Part shown: positions 1-14,967 of the stretch, one piece after another
How positions within the stretch are numbered: the stretch's first letter is position 1
How the letters are laid out: every line of letters starts with the position of its first letter
NCBI GenBank assembly: GCA_024741835.1
Contig: JAENRP010000620.1
Span: 1 to 14,967 of the forward strand
Reading direction: 5' to 3'
DNA: 14,967 bases
From: Diplocarpon mali
Lineage: Eukaryota > Ascomycota > Leotiomycetes > Helotiales > Drepanopezizaceae
Notes under the pieces: generated by a model
The model's database searches: none
The model's input: only the letters and a program-made list of their open reading frames with translations
What the model was told of the DNA's origin: nothing
Position numbers and translations under genes: made by a program

Positions 1-10
1 ATGCGCTTTC

Positions 11-33
11 ACCTATAGGCTAGGCCCAGGAGT
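11..33. repeat. Dispersed 23-bp palindrome, ORF-A distal end
   Basis: Arms ACCTATAGGCT and GGCCCAGGAGT flank a single A. In the phase starting with ACT the minus strand reads T-P-G-P-S-L-stop-V. This is the one copy inside or near a readable gene that is not in phase with it; the offset is one base. Confidence 0.75.
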
Positions 34-431
34 TAGAAAACGAAACTAGTAAAACAAATAAGCTATAGAATTGCAAAAACAATTAAAAATAGTACTAACC
101 TAGATATCAATTTTCCTTAGTTCTCTTTAAAAGGCGGGAAGACCTATTACTAGATAATACTCTCTTTATAAAGCGCCTACTTCTTCTTAATAGCTTACTA
201 TTAGTATTAAAGGAACTAGGTCTCGGTATAATAGGCGTCTCTATACTTCTTGCTAATGCTAGTATAGTATAACGACTTCTGCCGATAGGGAGAGAAACTT
301 ATATTATAGTATTATTATTATCTTCGTCTTTATTATTATTATCATCCTTTAGAGATTCGTTAGTGGCAAAGGGGGAGGCGATAGGTAACTCAATAGATAA
401 TACTTCCTTCTCTTTACCCTTAGTTAAATTA

Positions 432-454
432 AGTCGTAGGCCGGGCCCGGGAGT
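432..454. repeat. Dispersed 23-bp palindrome in ORF-A, GC-richest copy
   Basis: Arms AGTCGTAGGCC and GGCCCGGGAGT flank a single G. Read on the minus strand in the ORF-A frame it gives T-P-G-P-G-L-R-L without a stop. It is one of the least mutated copies and contains CCCGGGCCC, striking in an AT-rich setting. Confidence 0.85.
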
Positions 455-710
455 TATATCAAGGGTTATAGCACAGGGTTTCTTAGTGCTATACTTCTCG
501 AGAAGTATCGTCTTATTAATCATATTATCAGCTTCGATATTATCATTATTGCCTTTTATCTTAGTCTACGATTTGCCTCTATATAGCTATAATTCCAGTT
601 GTTGAATCATCTTCTATATATTCGAAAAATCTTTAAAGAGTTTTTACTTATATCTCTTTAAATATATTATTAATTATATCACATCTTTAGAAAACAATTC
701 CTTTACTATT

Positions 711-715
711 ATCAC
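711..715. repeat. Target site duplication, left copy (ATCAC)
   Basis: The 5 bp ATCAC directly precede the first base of the 5' LTR and recur directly after the last base of the 3' LTR. Five bp is the usual staggered-cut length of Copia integrase. The perfect match, despite heavy mutation elsewhere, fixes both element ends. Confidence 0.9.
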
Positions 716-910
716 TGTTGAGATAGGTGATATAGCTATCACTCTGATGTATTATCATATAACCCTACTGCTTAGTCAGTAGGATATTGATACATATATA
801 GCTATAAGGAAGAAAGGGGTAACCTTCCTTCTTTAACTCTTACTAATATATCGACTATCGACCTTTAAAAGCCTCCTTTACCTACTGCGCTGACTCACTT
901 AAGCTTAATA
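716..910 (+). repeat. Copia 5' LTR
   Basis: This 195-bp repeat begins with TG and ends in AATA, probably an original CA end changed by CpA-to-TpA mutation. It aligns without gaps to 6650-6844. By eye there are 18 differences, all transitions, and about 11 of them alternate between CA/TG and TA. The LTR should contain the promoter and the RNA start and end sites. A TATA-like stretch, TATATAGCTATA, lies near 795, but no transcription start can be fixed from sequence alone. Confidence 0.95.
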
Positions 911-925
911 GGTTATAAGCCTTAG
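911..925 (+). promoter_or_regulatory. Primer binding site, initiator-tRNA half type
   Basis: GGTTATAAGCCTTAG starts at the base after the 5' LTR. Allowing RIP-type changes, it is complementary to the anticodon arm of initiator methionine tRNA, which contains CTCATAACC. Drosophila copia and many fungal Copia elements prime from a half-tRNA cut in this loop rather than from the tRNA 3' end. The position and match identify it as the start site of minus-strand DNA synthesis. Confidence 0.85.
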
Positions 926-1315
926 ATAGACTGATAATAGATTATTAACTTCCTTTAGAAAGCACTTGCGCTATAACTGTTAGTAGGAAGTTAAACGAGA
1001 CTTATAGTAAGAGGCGAGCAATCGGCGAATAGGAGGTATAATTCCCTATTCAGCCAACTTATATTGCAAGAGGTATGATTCCTTGCTTTATAACCCTTTG
1101 GTATTATAAGAGGTATAATTCCTTACTTTACTATATTTTATAAGAGGTATAATTCCCTATGTTATAGCTTAAAACCCTTTTTAATAAAGAGGACTTCCTC
1201 CCTATTTAATACTTTTATAATACCTGCTATTTAATCATTTCAACTTTTCAATAGGAGGAGTGCCTTTAACTATTTAATTTATTTGATTTTAAACGCAATT
1301 CTATTTAAAACGGTA
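926..1315 (+). other. Copia 5' leader with four short tandem repeats
   Basis: This untranslated stretch of nearly 400 bp lies between the primer site and the inferred gag start. Its main content is a 16-base motif, GAGGTATRATTCCYTR-like, starting at 1033, 1070, 1110 and 1144, with spacings of 37, 40 and 34 bp. Repeats in an LTR-element leader could serve RNA packaging, dimerisation or translation, but nothing here proves which. A pyrimidine-rich stretch with no recognised signal follows from about 1160 to 1300. Confidence 0.6.
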
Positions 1316-2400
1316 ATAGCTTTCGATTCCGATCGAAATACTAGACTTAGAGACCTCTAACTCTCTCGAAAGAACTAGCAATAATGGTTCGACGATTTAA
1401 AGCTTTACTTTAAAAGTAAAGGCATTAAAATAGCGATTTAAAAGACACTTATTAAATATGTAAGAATAACTCCTTATACTCCTTCTACCGATTCGTCTAC
1501 TTCTACTTTAATAGCTAATATAATTGCTAAGGATTTGCCAAATATACTAAATAAGCTTAGCTTAAGAGCCTTAATAGATAATAACCGAGAATCCTAAAGG
1601 CAGATTTTAAATATAGAAAAGGAGAAGGAGTATAAGCTAGCGTTAGCCAAATGCAAGCTTAAGATTAATAGAGGTTTAAGCGATAAAGACTAAGATTTTA
1701 TTTAAGTTTATAATAATACGAAGATAAGATAAGATACCTTAAAGGTAAAATACTCTTATACAATTGCCTTTAATACTTAGTATCTACTATAGTAGATCAA
1801 TTTATTTTAATATAGAAAAGATAAAGATAGTAAAGATATAAATATAAATATAGACTCTGCTTAATTTATACTATATAAAGTGAGAAGGAGAGTAAGAGCT
1901 GTAGATCCTAGGATAGCTATAACTTTTAGGAAAACTTAGCTTTTTAGTTTCCTATTTAATAGCCTTCCTTTTAAGTTTGCTATTGCGAAACAATCTCTTC
2001 TCGTCTAATCCAACCTTAAGATCTATAAGAAGATCGACCTCCTTCGAACTATTAAGCAAGACCTTAAAGGACGCTCTAAATCGGCCGCGTTATAGGGCAA
2101 TGATAAGCCTAAGAAGAGGAAGGAGCGTAGGACAAGCCCTTAAGCTTATCGGGGATGCTACTTCTATAATAGTGCTTATAATATTACTAATTATAAAGTT
2201 AAAAGGCAACTGATCGATATAGTCGCTAGCTTTAATATTAAAAAGCAATTAAAGCAGAAGTCAAGAAGCAAACTGCCCTTATCCTATCAAAGGCTATAAC
2301 TATTAAGAAAAGGCAAAGGAAAAGGCTATTTAGTCAGAACTTTAGCAAATACTTTTAATAATAATAGTAGGTCATTTGAACTTAAATCTACTTTTGATAA
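1316..2400 (+). other. Gag region with zinc-knuckle remnant
   Basis: After the lost start, the frame reads W-F-D-D-L-K-L-Y-F-K-S-K-G-I near 1385-1426. This is the tryptophan-centred motif common near the N-terminus of Copia Gag (UBN2-type) proteins. A long helical, lysine-rich stretch follows. At 2156-2194 the frame reads C-Y-F-Y-N-S-A-Y-N-I-T-N-Y. If the tyrosines replace cysteine or histidine (TGT or CAT to TAT), this is a nucleic-acid-binding zinc knuckle, with three rather than the usual four residues before the third ligand. Gag forms the virus-like particle. The Gag assignment is firm from position and the N-terminal motif; the knuckle is tentative. Confidence 0.7.
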
Positions 2401-2464
2401 TTCAAACGATAATTATAATAAAGATGCTTATATCTTAAAAGCCGATCTTTATAAGATCCTTGAA

Positions 2465-2740
2465 TCCGACTAGTATAATAATATTAGTTGTATAGCATAT
2501 ATAATTAATAAATTCTACCTATTTAAAGGCCTGCTTACTAAAATAAAAAGGCGCTCTATTAAAGTTGGTAGTAGAAGGTTATATATAGACTTAATAGGTA
2601 TAGTAGAAATGAATATTATTAGCGTTTCTTTCCTTTTATAAAATATTCTTCTTATACTTAGCTTAAGCATTAATCTCTTATCTAACTATAAGATCTATAT
2701 AAAGTTAAATTATATAAGAGTTTTTAATAATTAATTTATA
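2465..2740 (+). other. Aspartic protease domain remnant
   Basis: At 2480-2503 the frame reads N-I-S-C-I-A-Y-I, where a Copia protease has its aspartate-centred active-site loop and following histidine. The aspartate codon is now AAT, preceded by T, which fits a TpG-to-TpA change. Downstream, R-R-L-Y-I-D-L-I-G-I-V, then L-L-S-N-Y-K-I at about 2678, match the flap and C-terminal part of the family. The enzyme would cut the polyprotein within the particle. The catalytic residue is lost. Confidence 0.75.
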
Positions 2741-2830
2741 TAGTTTATAAATAATAATTATAAAGTGATCTTTAAAGCTAAAATCAAAGATAGACTTTAT
2801 ATTATCTTAAAGGTAATATTATAGAAATTG

Positions 2831-3252
2831 ACTCTTAGGCCAGACTTATAAGTAGATTCCTTTAAGGAAAGTATACTCTTTACCCTAATACAATTAAGTA
2901 AGGATAAAGAGAATAGATAGACTCTTAAGCTAAGATCGTAAGTAAAATTCGTAAAAATGATTCTTAAGCTAAGACTATAGGTAGATTGTAAGGTGTTCTT
3001 AAAGGTGACTCTTAAGCTAGGATTATAAGTGAATTTAATAGAAATAACTCTTAGGCTAAGACTGCGAGTAGATTCTATAGATTTGCTAATAACAACTCTT
3101 AAGCTAGAATTGCAAGTGAAATTCGTAGAAATGACTTTTAAGCTAAGACCGCGAGTGAAATTCGCAAATTTGTTAAAGATAACTCTTAAGCTAAGACTAT
3201 AAGTAGATCTTGCGGTTTTATTAAAAACGACTCTTAAGCCAGGCTTACAATT
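2831..3252. repeat. Nine-copy in-frame palindrome array in Copia pol
   Basis: Copies of the 23-bp palindrome start at 2831, 2921, 2960, 3008, 3047, 3095, 3134, 3182 and 3230. Spacings are 90, 39, 48, 39, 48, 39, 48 and 48 bp, all multiples of three, so every copy is read in the same frame (for example T-L-R-P-D-L-stop-V at 2831). Pairs make an 87-bp higher-order unit. The array lies between D-R-L-Y-I at 2789-2803 and the integrase zinc site at 3377, a linker of some 190 codons where the family normally has a few tens of residues. The encoded text alternates basic and hydrophobic residues. Its function is unknown. Confidence 0.85.
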
Positions 3253-3370
3253 GGAAAATAGTAAAACCTCAAATTGCTATTATTAGTCCTTTCTAACCGC
3301 TAATAATAAAGTATCAACTAATAATAGGCTACTAAAGCTATTAAAAGCTAAAAGCTTATTAAAGTATTAG

Positions 3371-4110
3371 CTAATATATAAAAGATTCGCATATTTAAAG
3401 CTAAAGAAATTAAAAGGCCTATATAAGGTCTTAACCTTAAAACAGAAGATCTAAGTACTAAAGGATTGCTTAATATATCGAATTTATAAGCTAATAAAAC
3501 TTCGAAATCAGATGCGAACTAAGCTTAGTCTATAGAAAGATTCGATACTAGCGCTAATATCTATTAATACTATTAAACTATTTATAACCTTAATTAAAGG
3601 GAATAATTGGTTTTCTTAAATAGTAGATAATTCTATTTAATAGATATAGACTATTTATACTAAGACTAAATCTAAGCTTATAGAAAAGCTAGAAACTTGA
3701 AAAGTAATAAAGGAACGCTAGACCTAATTAAAGCTAATAGCTATTAAGTCTAATAACGCATTAAAGATTAAGGCAAAGTTAGACGAATAAGTAAAATAAG
3801 GAGTTTATTACAAACTAACTATAATATATAAAGGTTCCTATTAGAATAGCATCGCTAAGCAAAGCATCTAATAAGCAGAGACTAACTATCGCGCTCTACT
3901 ATAAGATGCTAACTTACTACTGGAATTCTAAGACCTTGCGGTTAAAGCAGATGCAGACTTGTAAAATAGAATAGGTAATAGACTAATAGTTAATAGCATC
4001 CAAATATTACTATATAAGGCATATTTTAAATAAAAACTAAGCTTAAACTATATCTATATCTTTAGAAGCGTTTGCTACTCCTATATTAGTCTAAAGTCCT
4101 AACCCGTAGG
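3371..4110 (+). other. Integrase: HHCC zinc site and DDE core, all acids lost
   Basis: The zinc site spans 3377-3478: the two histidine positions (3377 and 3392, four residues apart) read tyrosine, the first cysteine (3467) is kept and the second (3476) reads tyrosine. In the core, the first catalytic aspartate is AAT at 3566, the second is AAT at 3752 within S-N-N-A, and the glutamate is AAG at 3857 within N-S-I-A-K. The surrounding text is clearly Copia integrase, including A-E-T-N-Y-R-A-L-L near 3880. Every lost acid follows a T, so each is a TpG-to-TpA change. Integrase would join the cDNA to the target with a 5-bp stagger, matching the observed duplication. Confidence 0.9.
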
Positions 4111-4749
4111 TATAAAGAGTAAAAAGCTAATAGACTAAGGTAGAGAGTATATATTTATTAAATATATTAAATAGATAATAAAGCAATAGATAGTATATAT
4201 ATTAAATCTAAGGTAAGTAATTATATCCTTAATAATTGAATTTAATAAATCTTAAAATAGAAGGGAGCTATCTTTAAAGCTCTATATACTTAAAGATTCG
4301 CAAGGTATACCACTCGACGGTAATACTATCAAGTCGAACTAATAACCCCTTTCTCTTAGCTTAGGCATATTAAGCGCACTTGCTAATCGATAACCTACTA
4401 GTTGCCTAAAGGCCAAATAGACTATTCCTATTATTTGCAAACTACTTAAAGTATAAAATAACTTTAATATTATTATCCCTTTAATTAAAGCACTTAAGGT
4501 AAAGGATATTCTTAAAATAGGTATAAGTAATAATAAGCCTTTACTACTGGAAAGCGATTCCTTAGATAATAAGCCTATAAAACCTATAGCTAAACCTACG
4601 CCTTTAAAGAGGAATAAAGACCTAGAACTAGAAGATACCTTAAACGAATGCGAGTCTAAGCGTATCTAAGTTATAATAGTATATAAGATCTATAAGCTCA
4701 AACTTTAATAGAGCTTTGATAAAGATAATGTATTCCTAACTACTAAGGG

Positions 4750-5620
4750 GATAATGAAAATCTCTCTTTTAAAGATATATAATAAAGCTATTAATAACCT
4801 AAAGAATAGAGCAGTATAGAATAAGGCAATCTAAGAGGAGATAAGCTCTCTTATTGCAAATGGTATATAAATAAAGGAACTAATATTAAAGGATATGAAT
4901 CTGGTATTAATAAAGTAGGTCTTTACAATTAAGATATATATAAATAGGACCTTAGAATATTATAAGGTAAGGCTTATAGCTAAGGGCTTCTTCTAATAGT
5001 ATAAAGAAGACTACTTTAATATATTTGCGCTAATAGTTCGTATAGATACCCTTTGCATATTTATAGTAATAGTAGCCGCTAAGAACCTTAAATACAGATA
5101 GTATAATATTAAGAATGCATTTATTAAAGTGATTATAAAGGAATGGATTTTTCTCTCTTAACCTAATAGTATTCCTATATGCGCTAGCCACTCTCTTTAT
5201 ATACTTCGCAGTATCTATAGGCTTAAATAATCAGCCTATAATTAGAACCTCTTATATAGCTCTACTTTAATAGAAATAGGATTCGTTTAAAGCCTAGCTA
5301 ACCTTTGTCTATTTACCTATACTAAGCGTAGAATTAAGTTGCTATTATATATTAATGATATTGCTATAGCTGTAAAAACAACTACTTAATTAGATTGGTT
5401 CTTTATAATAATTCGGAAACGTTTTAATACTAAGGATTTAAAGGGAATTTATAAGATCCTTAGCATTTATATTATAAAGAACCGCTCTACTTAAGAACTT
5501 TAATTAGATTAAGAGTAGTATATTAAGAAGATCCTAAATCAAATAAGACTCTCCGCTTATGCTCCTAACTTTAAGCTAAAGCGTACTCTAATCGAAGGAA
5601 AGTATAATAAGTTAGAGCCT
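4750..5620 (+). other. Reverse transcriptase domain (RVT_2 type)
   Basis: The block starting at about 4830 (E-E-I-S-S-L-I-A-N-G) leads to K-V-R-L-I-A-K-G-F-F at 4964-4993 and then D-Y-F-N-I-F-A-L-I-V-R-I-D-T-L, the hallmark of Copia reverse transcriptase. The active-site box at 5345-5359 reads L-Y-I-N-D where the family has Y-V-D-D; the first aspartate is AAT (5354), the second is intact. The domain sits after integrase, confirming Copia. Many in-frame stops replace glutamine codons. It would copy element RNA to DNA. Confidence 0.93.
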
Positions 5621-5799
5621 ATTAATGAAAATAAGTAAAGAGGAGATCTGAAGAAGTACTAATAGGATATTAAAGCGATTATATATATTATAGTATATAT
5701 AAGACTAGATATAGCCTTTATTATTAAGCAACTTAATCAGAACTTAAAGGATCTAACGATTCAATATAAGAATGCAGTCAAGCGATTTAAAAGATACCT

Positions 5800-6300
5800 T
5801 TGATCGATAATTATATAAAAGGTAAGATATAGACTAACGAAATATATAAGTACAAAGCTTAAGATATATACCGATTCTAATTAGGCAAATATAAAAGGTT
5901 AGAAAAGTATATTTAAAAGTGTAGTAGTACTATATAGTAGACTTATATTATAGGAAAGTAGGAAGTAGAAATCAGTAGCTACCGCAAGCACTAAGGCCAA
6001 ATATATATTAATATTATTAAATTGTAAGTAAGGATTATAGATCGCCTAAGTTTTAAAAGATATAGGTTTCGCTAAGTATATTAAATGAGATAGGAATTGT
6101 ATTAATCTTTAAGTAGATAATATAAAGGCAATTACACTTATAAAGAATCTATACTTATATAAGCGATCGAAATATATTAATATTGCCTATTACTTTATCC
6201 GCAACCTTATTATAAAGAATAAGTTATCGATTACCTATATCTCAACCGATCGAATAGTAGCAGATGGATTTATAAAGCTACTAAAGACAGTTATAAAGTT
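5800..6300 (+). other. RNase H domain remnant
   Basis: The motif at 5867-5890 reads Y-T-D-S-N-stop-A-N, where Copia RNase H has D-x-D-W-A: the first aspartate is kept, the second reads asparagine and the tryptophan reads TAG. Further on, S-T-K-A-K-Y at 5987-6004 has the conserved glutamate changed to lysine (AAG at 5993). The end matches strongly: R-S-K-Y-I-N-I-A-Y-Y-F-I-R at about 6164-6202 and A-D-G-F-I-K-L-L at 6260-6283, a classic Copia pol C-terminus. It would degrade the RNA template. Confidence 0.9.
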
Positions 6301-6363
6301 CAAAGCATTTAAAAATATACTAAGGTTACAAAAGATAGTAAGGGCTTAGTAGGCTTAAGGACG

Positions 6364-6511
6364 ACTCCTAGGCCTACCTTGCGAGTTAGGTTATATAGTC
6401 TTATAAAGGAAAGTTTTTAAATCAATTCCTAGGCCTAGACCGCAAGTCAAGTTACGTAGTCTTATAAAGGAACGCTTTTAGAAATTTGACTCCTAGTCCT
6501 ACCTTATAAAT
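6364..6511. repeat. Three palindromes in a 61-64 bp repeat, Copia 3' UTR
   Basis: Palindrome copies start at 6364, 6425 and 6489, after the pol stop cluster. They belong to a longer tandem unit of 61 and 64 bp that also contains AGTCTTATAAAGGAA in the first two copies. Unlike the pol array, the three copies fall in three different phases, as expected outside coding sequence. They lie between pol and the polypurine tract, so they would be in the genomic RNA of the element. Confidence 0.8.
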
Positions 6512-6640
6512 AGGATTAGTGATTTCAATAGAGGTTACTATTAATTAATTGTTTTTAATTTAAATAGATACTTAAGAGTTAGATTAGCGCAAAAGGATAG
6601 TTATTATTTTCCTAACTATAGGTCAATCGGAGTAAGGTTT

Positions 6641-6649
6641 AAGTAGAGG
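6641..6649 (+). promoter_or_regulatory. Probable polypurine tract
   Basis: AAGTAGAGG directly abuts the first base of the 3' LTR. All bases but one are purines. LTR elements start plus-strand DNA synthesis from such a tract at this exact place. The tract is short, so the call rests mainly on position. Confidence 0.6.
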
Positions 6650-6844
6650 TATTAAGATAGGTGATATAGCTATTACTCTAATGTATTATCATATGACCCT
6701 ACTGTTTAGTTAGTAGGATATTAATATATATATAGCTATAGGGAAGAAAGGGGTAACCTTCCTTTCTTAACTCTTACCAATATATCGACCATCGACCTCT
6801 AGAAGCCTCCTTTACCTACTGCGCCGACTCACTTAAGCTCAATA
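6650..6844 (+). repeat. Copia 3' LTR
   Basis: This is the 195-bp partner of the 5' LTR with no length change. Its first bases read TATTAAG where the 5' copy reads TGTTGAG, so the terminal TG has been lost to a G-to-A change. Its right end, CTCAATA, keeps a CA that is TA in the 5' copy. Because each copy keeps bases the other has lost, mutation struck both copies independently after insertion. The target duplication follows at 6845. Confidence 0.95.
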
Positions 6845-6849
6845 ATCAC
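6845..6849. repeat. Target site duplication, right copy (ATCAC)
   Basis: The 5 bp ATCAC follow the 3' LTR and match 711-715. Removing the element together with one of these copies rejoins ORF-A without changing its reading frame. Confidence 0.9.
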
Positions 6850-7387
6850 TACTAATAGGTTATTCTATAATCTTCTACCTATAAAGGCCTTTGATAATAG
6901 ACCTCCTTTTATTATACTAAGCATTATATGAAATTTGGCTAACGATTCTCTAGTAATACTCTATCTCGCAATACTAGGTCTTTTTATACTAATAGAATCG
7001 ATAAGAAAATCTTCTAAGTCTATACTATTCTCTAGTAAGTTATTGCTAATAACTTCTATATAGTTGTTATTAATAGTAAGAAAGCCACCTTTTTTTAGTT
7101 CTCTAATAGATTCTATATTAATAAACGTGCCTTATTTAATAAATATAAAGAATAGAGTCGTCTTATTAGAGATATACTCCTTTAGAAGTGTCTTCTCTTT
7201 AGTATTCAATTCTTTCTATTATACTATATTTCGAGCTAGATTTAATAAGATCTATTAAGCATTCTTAAGGCGTTAAGGTATAAGATTTGATAATTCATAG
7301 GATTTTTCCTAAATAGCGAATTCTCTAGTCGATTGTTTAGCTGCTAGAATTATATAATAGTTAATAGTTCTACTATTAGGGGAATTG

Positions 7388-7410
7388 ACCTACGAGCTAA
7401 GCCTAGGAGT
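7388..7410. repeat. Dispersed 23-bp palindrome in ORF-A
   Basis: Arms ACCTACGAGCT and AGCCTAGGAGT flank a single A. In the ORF-A frame it reads T-P-R-L-S-S-stop-V. It lies 1,230 bp (410 codons) from the copy at 8618, keeping phase. Confidence 0.8.
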
Positions 7411-8617
7411 CAATCTTATAAATCTTATATTAGCATCAATCTTAATAGAAACAATTCGCAAATAATAGTCAATACCTATAAACTATATAGGCTTAGGATA
7501 CGCTACTAACTTATATAAAGAATTATATCAAGTTAGCAAAGCACTTAAGTATAATCTATAATGCATCCTCAGTATCTATTATATTAAGCTATAAGTTATA
7601 TTATAAAGGAAGGCAAAGGGGGGGTTTGGCTTCTTATCCAAGGTCCGGAAGTAGTATCGGTACATTTCTAATTCTTCTTATACTAATATTAAAAATGAAT
7701 TCTTTCTACGATTACTATAACTATACGTGCGTATAGCACCTAAAAAGGCGCAGCTAAATAACTTAAGCATATTTAAAAAGCCTTTGCTATAGAATGATAT
7801 AAAGTTGTTAATAGTTAGTATAGCATTATATTAGGCAAAGGTCTATATAATATTATAGAATAATTTAAAGGCTTTAGGTACTACTCTAAACTTAGAGAAG
7901 CCTAACGATATATCCTTCTTAACTTAGTTTGCTATTCTATTGCTAATAGCTATAATTGCATAATTTCCTAGATATAATAAAAATAAGGTCGGGTTAGGAG
8001 CGGTGCAAAATTTGTAGATATTAAAGGAAACTTACTTATTAGTTAAAGACACTATTATCAGCCTATAATATTATATATATTATCATTTATATAAAGTATA
8101 AAATTTTTCGAAACTAAAGTCCTTAAATATCCCTATTACAAATTTGCTCAATCGTATCTTCATCTCTGGTATTACCGCAATCTTGAATCTATCGCCATAT
8201 TAAAGTATTATCTTAATATTAAAGGAAACTTCATAGCACTTTATAGATATGATTATCGTACTACTTTCTAGCTTTTCTTTAAGGATATAGTAGTCGCCTT
8301 TCGATTTCTTATACTTAATAAAGAAATGCATAATATTATCTATAGAAAATTCGTCTTATTATAGCTTTATGATTTATTTAATAGCTCTTACTATTGCTTC
8401 CTATACTAGCAAAACTTCTCCTTGACCTTCCTTTTTCAAACGCTTCATTATTAACTTATAGAATTTCAAAACAAATTTTTACAAGTCCTTAAGGAAGGAT
8501 TGCATAATATTAGCGATATCCTTTTTAGTATTATTAAAAATCTCTAATACGTTAGTAACTATACTAGCCTCTTTATTTGACAAATCTTCTTCTAAGTTCA
8601 TAATATTACGTATATTA

Positions 8618-8640
8618 ACCTATAGGCCGGGCCTGTAAGT
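8618..8640. repeat. Dispersed 23-bp palindrome in ORF-A
   Basis: Arms ACCTATAGGCC and GGCCTGTAAGT flank a single G; the arms differ by only two transitions, so this copy is close to a perfect hairpin. In the ORF-A frame it reads T-Y-R-P-G-L-stop-V. ORF-B lacks a copy in the matching interval, which is about 63 bp shorter there. Confidence 0.85.
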
Positions 8641-8803
8641 CATTTTCTTTACTACTAGTATTTAAAGTATTTAAGGCATTTCTAAAGATAGTGACTTAAA
8701 TTCGTCTAAGTTAGAGGATTAGTAGTCAGGTAAGTCAGCTGCTTAAGTTCCTAGTATTATAAGCACTTCTAGCTTAAGGATATCCTCCTTATATGCTGAT
8801 TCC

Positions 8804-8826
8804 ACTTATAGGCTAGGCCTACGAGT
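8804..8826. repeat. Dispersed 23-bp palindrome in ORF-A, site shared with ORF-B
   Basis: Arms ACTTATAGGCT and GGCCTACGAGT flank a single A. In the ORF-A frame it reads T-R-R-P-S-L-stop-V. Measured from a conserved N-F-S block, it lies at 774 bp in ORF-A and the ORF-B copy at 12727 lies at 777 bp, so the two are probably the same ancestral insertion. Confidence 0.85.
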
Positions 8827-9714
8827 CAAATTCTCCTTATCAATTATTCCTATTAAAGGTAGTAGCATTTTTAAAATAATAGGGATAATAAACTCCTATC
8901 TTTCTATCTTATTATTAAAGTAATTCATAATATACTTAGCGAGATAAGTCATCTTTTCTTTTATAATAAGTAGACTATATTACAACTATTAAAGGCTAAG
9001 TATATCTAAAACAGTTTAATTAGGAAGTGCAAAATTATCATACTATAAGAGTTCGTCTTTTATAGTCTAAATGGTAGAATATATAATAGTGCTTAAGAAC
9101 CTAATAAATTTTCTACCTCTAATGCTATTTCCCTATAGCTTTTTCATACCTTCTTAAATAGTAAAATAATTTAATACCTATATAGCCTTTGCTATAGGTT
9201 AGTATATCTTAAAGATTTTATTAAGCCCTCGCAAGGCGTTATTAGTAGTAATATCAGTTATAAAGTAGGTCTAGAAAAGTATATTACAAGTGCCACTTAT
9301 AAATTGCAACAATCTTTTCATATACTCATTCTTCTTATCTCAATTTTTCTAAAACAAATCCATTAAATTAGCATACTCTTAATATTCCTATAGAAATTTT
9401 TCATAATCGATCCCTTTTATCTTAAGCTTATTTTCAAGAAAATCATCAAAGCCTAAAAATCCTTCTTCTATAGTAGAAATTCTATAGTTTAATACTTCTA
9501 TAGATGAGTTTAGGAATACTTGCTATTCTATTTCACCTAACGTTTTATAAGTAGTTACTATATCTTCTAATAATCTTAAAGCTTTTCTATCTTATGAAAA
9601 GTTACCCTCTAATATTAGTTTATTATTAGCAGTATTTAAGGGTTTGCTGCCTAAAGCTATAACTAATATATTCTTCTTAGGTATGGCTTTCTTACTTAAG
9701 TTCAATAGTGCTAT

Positions 9715-10202
9715 AATGAATTATTTAATAAGAGGGGGTAGTTTTAAACGGAGAGATAATTATTTAAAAAAGATTAATAATATAAGAGGCTTATATTAGA
9801 AAAGATTGATAATAAAAGATAATAGTAGTAGTACTAGTATTATAGGTCTGATAGGGTTATAGAAGAAGTAAAAAAAAGTAAAATCGTAGTATAAGGAGAG
9901 GTTTATTTATAGAGGTAAGAATCGCATTAGCGCGCAAAGGAAAAGTAGGCATAAAGAGGCCGAAAGTAGGAACAAAAGTAGGGTATAACGCATATAAGGA
10001 CCTATAATTGGTAAATAATAGCTATCAAAGGTAAGGATGACATTTTAAAGGTAAGCGTTAGAAAGTTGTATATAAAGGAAATAATCAAAGGATAGATCAT
10101 ATATAAAGAACGAAGTAGAGTAAAGAATATATATAAAATAGAATAATAAATAAAGAATAATAAGGTGCTAGTATATAGGAAGTAGATAATCTTAAAAAAA
10201 AG
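9715..10202. other. Purine-rich stretch between ORF-B end and ORF-A start
   Basis: No frame here gives a recognisable protein. The plus strand is strongly purine-rich, with runs such as AGAAGAAGTAAAAAAAAG near 9862, so the minus strand ahead of ORF-A is pyrimidine-rich, as many fungal promoters are. It could hold the ORF-A promoter and the ORF-B 3' end. No palindrome copy is present. Confidence 0.45.
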
Positions 10203-10455
10203 ATTTAATTCGAATTCGTAAGTTCTCTAAATGGTATTCTCTAAGGGTAATAGGCTAGATTCTCTAGATTGCTCGACTTAATTATTAGTTCTATTGTTAC
10301 TTTAGAGTCTTCTTCTCTTATATTAGTTCTTACTTCTTAGCGATTTTTCAGCTTTAAGGACCTCTTTTAAAGGATCTTCTATTAGTATCCCTAGATTTGG
10401 TAGCCGAAGTTCATTCAAACTATCTTATAGGCTAAAGCTAGCTAAGTCCAACCTT

Positions 10456-10478
10456 ACTCGCAGGCTAGGCTTATAAGT
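10456..10478. repeat. Dispersed 23-bp palindrome in ORF-B, stop-free copy
   Basis: Arms ACTCGCAGGCT and GGCTTATAAGT flank a single A. In the ORF-B frame it reads T-Y-K-P-S-L-R-V with no stop, within a run that is open on both sides. This shows best how the palindrome contributes a peptide to the protein. Confidence 0.85.
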
Positions 10479-11340
10479 CAGTCTTAGCATTTCTAAGCTT
10501 AAGGGTAAAAATAGGGAATTGGTTCCTAAATCAGGGTCTAGCACTATACTAGTATTATAGCTTATCTCTTTTCCGAATTTTCTTATAATAATATCTTTAT
10601 CAATTAGTGCATTAGGCTCTTAGATAGCATTTATTTTATTATATTATCCTTAAGACTTGAGTCTATAAAGAAGCAACTTAGTATTTGTAACGTTCGTCTA
10701 GGCATTAATAAAGGCATTAAAGAGTTTCTAATTATATTTTATAAAGTGGATTTTCAATTCGTCTTTATTAAAAAGAAACAACTTCTGTACTTTAATTATA
10801 ACTAAGGGGTCCGTCTAAGAGCGTTAACTAATAATAGCTTTAAAGAGGCTGCTGCAGTTCTTAAGATGAAAAGCTACTTTAAAAGGTGCAGTAGTTCTAC
10901 TTATATTAATCTATTAAGGTACTAAAGGTTGCTTTAAAGCAGAGATTGAAAAGATAAGATCGGAGATTCGAGTCTTATTTTCTAAGGTATTTTTATCGCA
11001 GATAGCTATATAGTTATTGCAAAAGGCTATAAAACCACCAGTTTTATAAGAATTATTTAAAAGCATTTTAAGAAGATATCCTTATTTTATTATTATTATA
11101 ATTGGATTGCTATTATTAGTAATAGGTCGTAAGATCTCCTTTCGCTTTATTTTTATAATTATTTAAGCTAATTAAGATTTTAAACTAAGTGCTTAAGAAG
11201 TCTATCGACTTATCTTCTTTATAGATAAAGTGAGTTTTATATTCGATTAAGAGCCGATCTACCTATTAAGACTTCCTAAAGCAGAGCCTTATCTAATCGG
11301 TAGGATCTAATAATCTAAGACTCGCTTACTAGCAAAATTG

Positions 11341-11363
11341 ACTCGCGGGCCAGAACTATAAGT
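11341..11363. repeat. Dispersed 23-bp palindrome in ORF-B
   Basis: Arms ACTCGCGGGCC and GAACTATAAGT flank a single A. In the ORF-B frame it reads T-Y-S-S-G-P-R-V. It lies 1,386 bp (462 codons) from the copy at 12727, so phase is kept even though the intervening text is partly obscure. Confidence 0.8.
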
Positions 11364-12726
11364 AAAAATCGGAATTTCTTTATTAGTAGTACTTATATCT
11401 CTTTTTATTAAAACGACTTAATTGTAAAGACTAAGGCCAATTAATTAAAGAGGTTCAAGGTAGGCTATAAGCTAATAGGTTCTTCTACTTCTTACTATTA
11501 TAGCTAAGAGGTAGAGTCTATAATACATTCGAAGGACTTATTAAGTAAGACTGAATATTATATTATAAAGAAAATAAGAAGGTGTAAAGGTCGCGCTATC
11601 TATAGGATAGAAGTAATAAAGATATATCTCTACTTCTTATCTTATAATAAAAAGGAATATACTTATAAAAGTACTATTATTAGTAGTAAAATTATCGGTT
11701 AGGAAGCGGCATCCGAAGGGTTTAAGCATTACAATTAACCCTTCTTCCTTTATTTCCTTTTGCTATTTATTACTTAATAATATCGATAAAAAGGAATTAT
11801 TCTATTCAATTGGCTCTAATGCTTTTAAGGCTTTAAGATTAGCCTTAAATTTTATAATACCTAAAGATGCCTCTATTATTAATAGGTTGGATTTATATAT
11901 CCTTAAAGAGATAAAGAATTAATTATTAAAATAAATTAGAAAAAGATCGATATCTTCTATTATATAAAGAAGTTTAAGGTATTTAATAGTTTTATTAATA
12001 TTAAAGCCTTTATAATTAAGACTATAATAAACCGAAAGAGAGCGAATATAAAGGTTATAAAGTCTTCTCCCTTTAATTCTTACGCTAGGAAGATACTATC
12101 GAAAGCGAGTTTTTATTATAAAGGACACTTAAATATTATATTATTCTTTAAACTTAAGGTTAAGAATAACCGATTAAGGCATATTGCTATAATTACAAAT
12201 GTCCTAATTAATAGATTCCTTTTTATATTCTCTTTTTTATAAGATAAAATAGTCTCGCTTAGCATTTAAGAGATTAGGTTTTTAACTTTTATAATTATTA
12301 AAGAATTAAATAATATCTATAAAGGCGAACTTGTTTAAGATAAGCTATTAAATCTATTTAATAGCTCTTCTAATTATCTTTAGAATAGTAGGAATAGGGT
12401 CTTCCCTTATATTATTATTTTTAAAGCAGTTATATATAAATATAAAGAAGTTAAGAACTAGCTCTTTTAAGTTATTAAGAAAGGAGTTTAAATAGGCGTA
12501 TAATCCTTTGATTTCAAATTGCAAATCAATTAAGATAGCTATTAAACGATCTATCCTTCTTAAAGGTTAAGCTAAAATTAGTCGTTTAACTAAAGGAGAG
12601 TCCTTTAAAGATTTTGAAAATTCTAAAGAGGCTATATTAAGCGTTTAAGCAGTTTATTTAATAGCAGTTTCTAAAATCATTTTAATAAAAGGCAAGTTAG
12701 GTCTAGTTTTAAAATTCTCATTTCTA

Positions 12727-12749
12727 ACTCTTAATCTAAGACTATAAGT
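12727..12749. repeat. Dispersed 23-bp palindrome in ORF-B, site shared with ORF-A
   Basis: Arms ACTCTTAATCT and AGACTATAAGT flank a single A. In the ORF-B frame it reads T-Y-S-L-R-L-R-V. It corresponds in position to the ORF-A copy at 8804, within one codon of the same distance from a shared upstream block. Confidence 0.8.
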
Positions 12750-13745
12750 CAAATTATATAGTTTAGCACTTATTATATCTTTAAGCTAAAAGGCGAATTT
12801 TAAAGCAGGCTTAATTATAAATAATTAATTCCCTTCTTTATTATTAAAGAAATCTTATTTAAACCTTAGTATAAAAGTCCAATTCTCTTTTAAAATAAGC
12901 AAACTATAAGCAAAAGCGTAAAGCCTTAGTATATTAATAATAGTACTATTAAGTAAGGTAATATCTATAGCCTAATTTGATCTTTTTATAGCCTTATCAG
13001 CTGCTATAAGTACTGCATTAAATAGGCTTATAAATCTATAATTATAAATTCGATTGCCTTAGAATTTTGCTACTCCTTCTTAAATGATAAAGAAATTAAG
13101 AATTTGAATAGCTTTAGCTATAAAAGTATTTTCCTTAAGAATTTTTAATAACACTCGCCTTCTATTATTAGAATTAATATTTATTAAAAAGCGTAAATGA
13201 AATAGGAGTCCTCTTTTATTAATAGCTAAATTATCTAATTATCGAATAGATTTTTCTCTTTTATCTCAGTCTATTTTAAAAGTATTAGCCAAAGTTATAT
13301 ATTAATCTGCGTCAGCTAAGAATTCCTCTTTAAAGATTCCCTTTAATCTTAATTCTTTAATTAAGAAGTTGTTAAATTAGAGAATTCCAAGGGCCACTTA
13401 GGTTAAAAGGTTACTAATAGTATTCGCATAAGCTAAAAGGAGTTTTTATTACTTTATATCTCCTAAGGTTATATAAGTCGATTTAAAGCTCTTTAATAAT
13501 GCAATAGCTCTACCGTCTTAAGAGAAGTTTATAACTAGTACTTATTTATCTCCTATTATAGTAGATAAAACCATTTATAAGTTCTTTAAAGGTATATTAC
13601 TTATAAAGGATAAGGAGTATAAATAAGAGAGTTTAATAGGATATAAGAATGAAAAGGGTATATAAGCTACAATAGGTTTGCTATATATATATTAAGGAAA
13701 TTGGACTTTTTATTTATTATTTAAGGAAAGTAATAGGAATGCTAT

Positions 13746-13964
13746 AATTAAAGGCTAATATTAAGAATGTAAAATAAGTTAAAGTAAGCAAGAATTTAAA
13801 GTGATCTTAAAAGATCTATATCTTAAATAATAAAGGAGGCGACCTTGCCGAAAATGTAAAAATAAGGATTAAAGGAAGGTAGGATAATTAATAGGCTAAG
13901 AAATCGCTTAATATTCCTACTTGCGTTCTTCAAATATTTTAGAAATAATAACTTAAGATTGCGA
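13746..13964. other. Unassigned gap between Gypsy pol tail and ORF-B
   Basis: About 220 bp separate the end of the readable Gypsy frame from the inferred ORF-B start. A GC-richer patch (AGGAGGCGACCTTGCCG at 13833-13849) stands out. The Gypsy 3' untranslated region and LTR, or the ORF-B promoter, would be expected here; neither can be shown, because the partner LTR would lie outside the window. Confidence 0.3.
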
Positions 13965-14967
13965 TTAATTAGATATTTTAATATTCTTTACTTATAGGAC
14001 CGGCTTATAGGTTAAGTTGGAAAAATCTTAATCTTTATCTAAGGGTTTAAAATTGCTTATATTACTATTAGTTCTTATAAAAGATTTAAAGGTTATATCG
14101 GTTTCCGATTCGTCTTCTAAGGGAAATAAGGTCTAATTATATTAATAAAATCGCTTTAATCGATTAGCTATAAAGGTTCCTTTAATATTAACTCTATTAA
14201 GTTCTTAAAGAGAATAGTATCCCTTTTCTTTTTACTTAGATTTAACCTTAAATAGGCCAAGCTATCGATAGTCAAGTTTAGTATTTACTAATATATTAAT
14301 ACTTCTTATAATATTATAAATTAGAATAAGATCATCTTTTCAAATAGGATGCGTTTTAAATACTTTAAAAGCAGCCTATACTTCCTTAGCTTTTTCCTAA
14401 TATCATTTCTTTTATAGAATGATTTCCTTTATATTTATATCTTAAAGCTTAAGTTATTAGCATCTTATTATAAGTAAATCGGAATAGTTCTAAATTTGAC
14501 TATAATCGAATAATCTCTAAATAAGCTATCAAGATTTAAAAGGGAGCTATGCCTCTTTACTATAAATAAGGAAAAATAGTATAACTTTAATCGGTTTATA
14601 AATTATCGTTTAATAAGCAAAGAGTATTTTATAAAAGTGTTTTATCTAATTTTTAAATCCTTTATAAGTAACTTTAGATAGCTTATTAAGAATATCGCAA
14701 TATCTTCGCTTTACTATTCTATTAGCTTTCGAATTATATACTAAGATTTGAACCTATTTAATACTATATTTTCATAAAAAAGCTTTAACTATTCCTTTAT
14801 TTTTAAAGCCTTTATTAATAGTTAGTTTACTAAAAAGTCTATAGTAATAAACTATATCTTCTTAAAGGAACTTCGCAATAGATTCAAAGTTAATAGATCT
14901 CAAAGGTCGTCCTTTAGGCCATTTTAATAAGTCCTCCTTTATTAAAATAAAATATATAATCCTATTT
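13965..14967 (-). pseudogene. Ty3/Gypsy pol, integrase end, runs off the right edge
   Basis: The minus frame (starts at 2 mod 3) enters at the window edge and reads as a fungal Gypsy integrase. W-P-K-G-R-P-L-R-S-I (about 14920), I-N-K-G-F-K-N-K-G-I-V-K-A-F (about 14819) and Y-N-S-K-A-N-R-I-V-K-R-R (about 14738) form the core. K-H-F-Y-K-I-L-F-A-Y follows, and the C-terminal SH3-like domain reads L-D-Y-R-stop-L-G-L-F-K-V, G-Y-Y-S-L and G-T-F-I-A-N-R-L-K-R-F-Y near 14180-14250. In the core the second aspartate position is asparagine and the glutamate position is lysine. Stops occur at glutamine, arginine or tryptophan sites. The frame is kept to the end and contains the palindrome at 13990. The rest of pol and gag must lie to the right. 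No 3' LTR could be defined on the left. Confidence 0.88.
13990..14012. repeat. Dispersed 23-bp palindrome in Gypsy pol tail
   Basis: Arms ACTTATAGGAC and GGCTTATAGGT flank a single C. In the Gypsy pol frame it reads T-Y-K-P-V-L-stop-V, some 30-50 codons after the conserved integrase C-terminus, so it is part of a non-conserved C-terminal extension. Confidence 0.8.

Follow-up and report, generated by a model that had tools for sequence, protein, structure and literature searches.

How does one short palindrome come to be read in a common frame inside the proteins of unrelated transposons? The question is raised by a stretch of 14,967 nucleotides of the fungus Diplocarpon mali (contig JAENRP010000620.1, positions 1 to 14,967), analysed here over its whole length and referred to as the window. 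The window belongs to a large Gypsy-type element, Gypsy-A (1-716 and 6842-14967, minus strand), which has been mutated by repeat-induced point mutation (RIP) and is accompanied by two open reading frames (ORFs), ORF-A and ORF-B; a Copia-type long terminal repeat (LTR) retrotransposon, Copia-B, lies inside ORF-A. Palindromes of the form ACTC..GAGT occur nine times in an array in the Copia pol gene, three times after the Copia pol stop and eight times in the large Gypsy element. In a preliminary description, seventeen copies within genes (nine in Copia pol, four in ORF-A, three in ORF-B, one in Gypsy pol) were all read with ACT as the first codon, and in-frame insertion was proposed, similar to that of the Rickettsia palindromic elements (RPEs), which insert in frame into protein genes. 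All seventeen copies were found in their places, those at 2960 and 12727 below the cut-offs. We regard it as somewhat probable that a short GC-rich palindromic repeat family (a 23-nt core with weaker outer arms, about 35 nt) has spread, through copying of DNA or cDNA, among several unrelated LTR retrotransposon families in the genome of one fungus and is kept where the frame is open.

The palindrome and the elements that carry it

Before RIP, the core of the palindrome read ACTC[C/G]CGGGCCNGGCCCG[C/G]GAGT. The 49.4 Mb genome was searched with the pattern ACTCSCGGGCCRGGCCCGSGAGT, allowing up to three mismatches, and 628 forward and 617 reverse matches were obtained; the same pattern read backwards, which served as the control, gave no match on either strand. 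Many sites match on both strands, so the genome total lies at no fewer than 628 and no more than 1,245 sites. Within the window, 17 sites were counted against 0-1 per Markov shuffle (20 shuffles) and, at a looser cut, 19 RIP-tolerant copies against 0-2; decay puts the copies at 2960 and 12727 below the score cut-offs, and they were recognised as members of the repeat only. The exact palindrome had no match in the viral or prokaryote collections. Conservation extends beyond the core, the second position outward being a purine in all 46 flanks and the first C or G in 38 of them (23 sites, some of them in the same element), and the repeat is therefore closer to 35 nt than to 23. Of six copies folded as RNA, four gave predicted hairpins of -13.2 to -20.1 kcal/mol.

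By their flanks, 203 sites were grouped into 17 clusters, the largest of which (79 sites) merges several adjacent sites, while three hold one site each. Nineteen further distinct sites were added; 17 fell into known clusters and two made one new cluster, giving 18 in total. The sites are a sample selected by closeness to the consensus and not a full-genome census, and decayed or unusual copies are under-represented in it; L125 repeats another site and was counted once, both here and in the array spacings described below. By our reading, every sampled cluster is multi-copy or within an element, and no unique host gene is present among the 18 clusters of this similarity-chosen sample. The palindrome is carried by at least two Copia families (Copia-A and Copia-B) and two Gypsy families (Gypsy-A with ORF-A and ORF-B; Gypsy-B, comprising L029 and its relatives). 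It is also present in a further repeat (L028, L058), for which a comparison of L058 with Pfam gave a single sub-cut-off match, to DotZ (E 0.089, 12.8 bits, cut-off 27). In Copia-A the palindromes occupy coding linkers and, in addition, the 3′ untranslated region directly after the pol stop; the same DNA is found in the 3′ untranslated region of Copia-B.

Two sequence variants were seen in these elements. At the site between the RNase H and H2C2 domains of Gypsy-A, L012, L017, L022 and L089 show a two-base difference, GAGCC versus GGTCC. The variant occurs at other sites too, and such variation across sites could reflect conversion between palindromes. In the 3′ region of Copia-A, which had no match in Pfam (L038), a 17-nt palindrome-like stretch, CCTACTCTAGAGTAGAG or close to it, follows the palindrome some 30 nt further right in some copies (among L038, L041, L043 and others) and not in the rest. 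It is possible that this stretch is a presence/absence pair for another tiny palindrome.

Reading frame at the coding sites

The frame with ACT as the first codon (ACT-first) is used at 11 of the 12 coding sites with a supported frame: two in Copia-A, the Copia-B array, two in Gypsy-B, four in ORF-A, 10456 in ORF-B and 13990 in Gypsy-A. The count leaves out 11341, 12727, the repeat of L028 and L058, and a gag-side site of Gypsy-B (L110, L117), where two frames of the site's strand hold no or almost no stops. With independent sites and equal odds for each frame, at least 11 such sites out of 12 would arise with a chance of 25 in 531,441; sites of the same element may not be independent, so the real evidence for a frame bias is weaker than this figure.

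The frame at each site was assigned as follows. In Copia-B, the RVT_2 domain (residues 1635-1851, frame 2) sets the frame of pol, and the array is therefore ACT-first; in L112, a less mutated relative, ACT-first is the sole stop-free frame on the sense strand. In Copia-A, the protease-side linker and the linker between the SH3-like and reverse transcriptase (RT) domains are ACT-first in 53 of 53 Copia site-copies. Fourteen further ACT-first site-copies (L067, L070, L074, L092, L104), which match Copia through repeats only, were assigned to Gypsy-B. The two ACT-first sites of Gypsy-B lie upstream of RT, where only a downstream anchor is available, and in the RNase H-H2C2 linker. Codon columns with stops are fewest, on either strand, in the ACT-first grid at 432, 7388, 8618, 8804 and 10456, and the phase of these five sites therefore does not depend on which strand codes. 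When stops fixed in all copies were considered, ACT-first had the fewest on the minus strand at each of the five sites and, on the plus strand, at all but 7388 and 8618. At 11341, where the counts are ambiguous, ACT-first was lowest on the minus but not on the plus strand. For 13990, stop counts do not decide the frame by themselves, and the assignment rests on continuity with the Pfam-anchored frame of L012.

The twelfth site lies outside the window, in Gypsy-A between RNase H and H2C2. Here Pfam anchors on both sides share one frame, and the palindrome is read in another frame than ACT-first, as R-L-A-S-P-A-C-E-S in L012. In all 8 copies compared, no other frame of that strand has as few stops (11 copies were pooled in a further comparison). 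The proposal that the palindrome is always read in the same frame thus largely holds in the window, where 11341 is ambiguous and 12727 is placed by grid only, and fails at this Gypsy-A site; the excess of one frame for which a test had been suggested is present, with one site otherwise. A single universal frame is ruled out by the off-frame copies, and ACT-first is a strong bias, not a rule. Stop avoidance is likewise ruled out as the cause of the bias: as the preliminary description had held, the pre-RIP core contains no stop in any of the three frames. The three copies past the Copia pol stop do lie in three different phases. The bias probably stems in part from shared descent within an element and in part from a better tolerance of the Gly/Pro-rich peptide T-x-G-P-G-P-x-V.

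Gain of copies and rival explanations

Tandem arrays provide one view of how copies multiply. Their unit is 39-72 nt and is a multiple of three when coding: in 31 fetched loci this was so in 50 of 50 distinct cases (45, 54, 48, 66, 72, 39), a count that includes copies related by descent, and in all five cases of the window. In the noncoding 3′ array of Copia-B, spacing was a multiple of three in 2 of 5. The same Gypsy-B linker holds one or three units depending on the copy. This variation, together with the multiples of three, is most simply accounted for by local duplication selected for an open frame. No empty site was seen at the Gypsy-B site, where the four matches are all 50 nt (lengths only).

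The linkers of Copia-A were compared with those of related proteins. An intact Copia polyprotein of Diplocarpon coronariae, P0001 (PZA11_001233), aligns with Copia-A copy L036 at 80% along the full query, followed by relatives from Rhynchosporium at 42-43%. P0001 carries two repeats of the STREPGPGVNSS type in the linker between gag and the protease-side domain, and three TPGPGPRVN repeats in the linker between the SH3-like and RVT_2 domains. The peptide is missing from the matching linkers of six Copia relatives (P0002, P0003, P0013-P0016; P0016 stops short of the first linker). Overall, the peptide pattern was found in 1 of 66 proteins compared, and in none of 26 Gypsy relatives. The first linker has 91 residues in P0001 against 64, 64, 49 and 113 in the four measurable relatives; it is longer than three of them, and the longest, P0014, carries other sequence there. 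Net insertion is thus supported at the first Copia linker only. The proposed RPE-like in-frame insertion gains partial support from the absence of the peptide from these relatives, from one DNA word shared between unrelated families and from the coding spacings; the second linker speaks against insertion.

In Gypsy-A, the linker between RNase H and H2C2 encodes LASPA[R/C]ES. SPAQE, SPARE, SPSQE, SPARQ or SLAQQ is present in this linker in six of the seven closest relatives (P0067-P0073; P0068 gave no anchor) and in none of the 14 remaining anchored relatives, the motif having been defined after the alignment was viewed. In the relatives it stands 17-18 residues ahead of the next conserved stretch, and SPACES of L012 at 19. 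The flanks of this site gave 82 and 88 matches, of which the 100 listed all span 52 nt (lengths only), without the tandem variation seen elsewhere. Judged from sequence, the off-frame copy may be coding sequence native to the linker and not an insertion. The Gypsy-A linker is thereby a candidate source of the palindrome and, if the off-frame copy is native, all later-gained copies could be ACT-first. A more specific history, which we offer tentatively and hold to be doubtful, is that the palindrome was born in this integrase-side linker, L-A-S-P-A-R-E being encodable as a near-perfect palindrome, was perfected through hairpin correction, jumped as a hairpin to other families during reverse transcription, and was fixed nearly only in the T-x-G-P-G-P-x-V frame. 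If true, a eukaryotic nuclear genome would here possess a palindromic element that codes for protein and has retrotransposons as both source and host.

For the spread among retrotransposon families that we favour, new copies would arise by templated insertion or templated replacement. The likeliest route would be template switching on the hairpin, during repair or reverse transcription, with local duplication afterwards; within genes, only frame-preserving copies would be kept, in flexible inter-domain linkers. Most copies were later mutated by RIP. Several observations count against it. At the Copia-A 3′ site no empty site was seen, 51 of 51 matches being long enough for the palindrome and 36 of 36 with letters shown having it, and no target-site duplication was seen around the palindromes in gap-pattern searches at three sites (two by length only). 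The second Copia linker has 76 residues in P0001 against 79-139 in six relatives, and the L012 linker, at 38 residues, lies inside the 37-44 of its relatives; neither indicates net insertion. The two window copies folded gave only -8.9 and -7.0 kcal/mol. The copying mechanism is itself one that we infer, and neutral insertion accounts poorly for how strong the ACT-first bias is.

Other accounts of the same data were weighed. Each retroelement might use the palindrome as nucleic acid, as an RNA dimerisation or packaging hairpin or as a site bound by a dimeric host protein, its coding location being incidental. The predicted hairpins are stable in less mutated copies, each element has several copies in arrays as well as in 3′ untranslated regions, and variants with paired changes occur (e.g. 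GGTCC..GGACC, CGTAGG..CCTACG). However, copy number differs between copies of one element (one versus three in one Gypsy-B linker) and some coding copies retain just 5-7 of 11 pairs, and we judge this account unlikely. The preliminary description had also considered selection for the peptide. On this account T-x-x-P-G-x-x-V would serve as a linker or as an interaction motif that retrotransposon proteins acquired more than once. The peptide is read at 11 of the 12 supported coding sites. Transversions from the consensus in the ACT-first frame of Copia-A were found at 35 of 318 third codon positions against 4 of 742 first and second positions, and in Gypsy-B at 15 of 114 against 0 of 266; these counts are biased by the selection of sites for consensus similarity. 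The transversions fall mostly at two positions and resemble a few ancestral changes, both of which are present in the noncoding Copia-B array, and third positions 3 and 21 are invariant in 72 coding copies, though synonymous change is possible there. Since the same DNA occurs in 3′ untranslated regions and, in Gypsy-A, in another frame, peptide selection is excluded as the sole cause, and as an account of the repeat it seems to us quite unlikely.

A palindrome mobilised in trans by a transposase, like an RPE or a miniature inverted-repeat transposable element (MITE), would be able to enter any gene, only its retrotransposon copies having been sampled. Dispersal of the palindrome, its in-frame position within proteins and the conserved outer arms agree with this. 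The sampled clusters all lie in repeats, by our reading, neither target-site duplication nor empty site came up in the searches and the unit is very short, so that such an element appears very unlikely. We give hardly any credence to the palindrome being ordinary ancestral sequence of each protein family. It draws on the second Copia linker, which is not longer in P0001 than in relatives, and on LASPA[R/C]ES, which resembles the motif in six of seven closest relatives at near-equal distance to the next conserved stretch. Relatives without the peptide in both Copia linkers refute ancestral origin as a general account, and one DNA word is common to unrelated Copia and Gypsy families.

Comparable repeats are known from other systems. 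RPEs are palindromic, about 150 bp long, and lie in frame in unrelated bacterial metabolic genes, where they encode a conserved peptide (PMC10969869); the passages of PMC2635572 that were consulted have nothing on RPE frames. The present repeat shares with them a palindromic, hairpin-forming family in frame inside protein genes and a conserved peptide. It differs in its 23-35 nt, its location in nuclear retrotransposons of a fungus, its tandem arrays and its presence in untranslated regions, and unrelated unique host genes are lacking among the 18 sampled clusters. As to one reading frame of the element, a trait ascribed to RPEs, the 11 of 12 ACT-first coding sites stand beside one off-frame site that may be native. 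RPE-like behaviour is plausible as a way of working; membership of the RPEs is not supported, given the absence of a host gene in the sample, the failure to find an empty site and the far shorter unit. The PstI palindromes of Neurospora, the GC clusters of yeast and the double-hairpin elements of Allomyces are short, dispersed and regarded as mobile and recombinogenic (PMC7218506). Like the PstI palindromes, the present repeat is GC-rich; unlike these fungal mitochondrial palindromes, its copies lie in Copia and Gypsy elements on many large contigs. In mitochondrial genes of Nematomorpha, inverted repeats of up to 284 bp lie within coding sequence and both arms encode conserved protein (PMC6649704). 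The embedding in protein-coding sequence is common to both, whereas here one short repeated word is common to many genes. Among open papers, searched by titles and abstracts, none dealt with palindromes in nuclear fungal retrotransposons. Protein-coding palindromic repeats are known from Rickettsia and organelles, and a nuclear version in unrelated retrotransposons would show very short DNA words spreading between elements inside genes, its hundreds of comparable copies being a natural experiment on frame use.

Layout of the window

Features of the window. Single palindromes are given as the spans of their 23-mers, array members by 23-mer starts.
Position	Strand	Feature	Frame or basis
11..33	-	Additional palindrome beyond the fixed ORF-A stop, absent from the preliminary list	No clear coding frame
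432..454	-	Palindrome in ORF-A	ACT-first; cluster of 9 copies, gathered with searches that include the palindrome
718..6844	+	Copia-B, Copia-type LTR retrotransposon, RIP-mutated, inside ORF-A of the Gypsy-type element	LTRs, RVT_2, flank alignment
2831..3252	+	Nine decayed palindromes in tandem within Copia-B pol	ACT-first; starts 2831, 2921, 2960, 3008, 3047, 3095, 3134, 3182, 3230
6364..6511	+	Three palindromes after the Copia-B pol stop	Starts 6364, 6425, 6489; three different phases
7388..7410	-	Palindrome in ORF-A	ACT-first, stop counts
8618..8640	-	Palindrome in ORF-A	ACT-first, stop counts
8804..8826	-	Palindrome in ORF-A	ACT-first; 11/11 pairs kept in relative L034
10456..10478	-	Palindrome in ORF-B	ACT-first; cluster of 15 copies
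11341..11363	-	Palindrome in ORF-B	Ambiguous by stop counts; ACT-first should the minus strand be coding
12727..12749	-	Palindrome in ORF-B, strongly decayed	Shares its minus-strand grid with 10456 and 11341
13990..14012	-	Decayed palindrome near the 3′ end of Gypsy-A pol	ACT-first through continuity with the L012 RNase H/H2C2 frame

The first stop of ORF-A, which precedes the copy at 11-33, is common to 7 of 7 copies compared. ORF-A and ORF-B (107-12749, minus strand) had no Pfam family at E 0.1 when six frames of the less mutated copies L034 and L015 were searched; they may be additional genes that the large Gypsy element carries. Among Copia-B relatives of the array after the pol stop, L075 has three copies (spacing 66/61) and L094 two (spacing 66).

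The LTRs of Copia-B lie at about 718-910 and 6652-6844 and form a 193-nt direct repeat (91%). Further copies of the host Gypsy element align on either side of Copia-B, up to about 716 and again from about 6842. TCACT at 712-716 and 6846-6850 is an apparent short duplication, recognised from the letters alone, that borders Copia-B within ORF-A.

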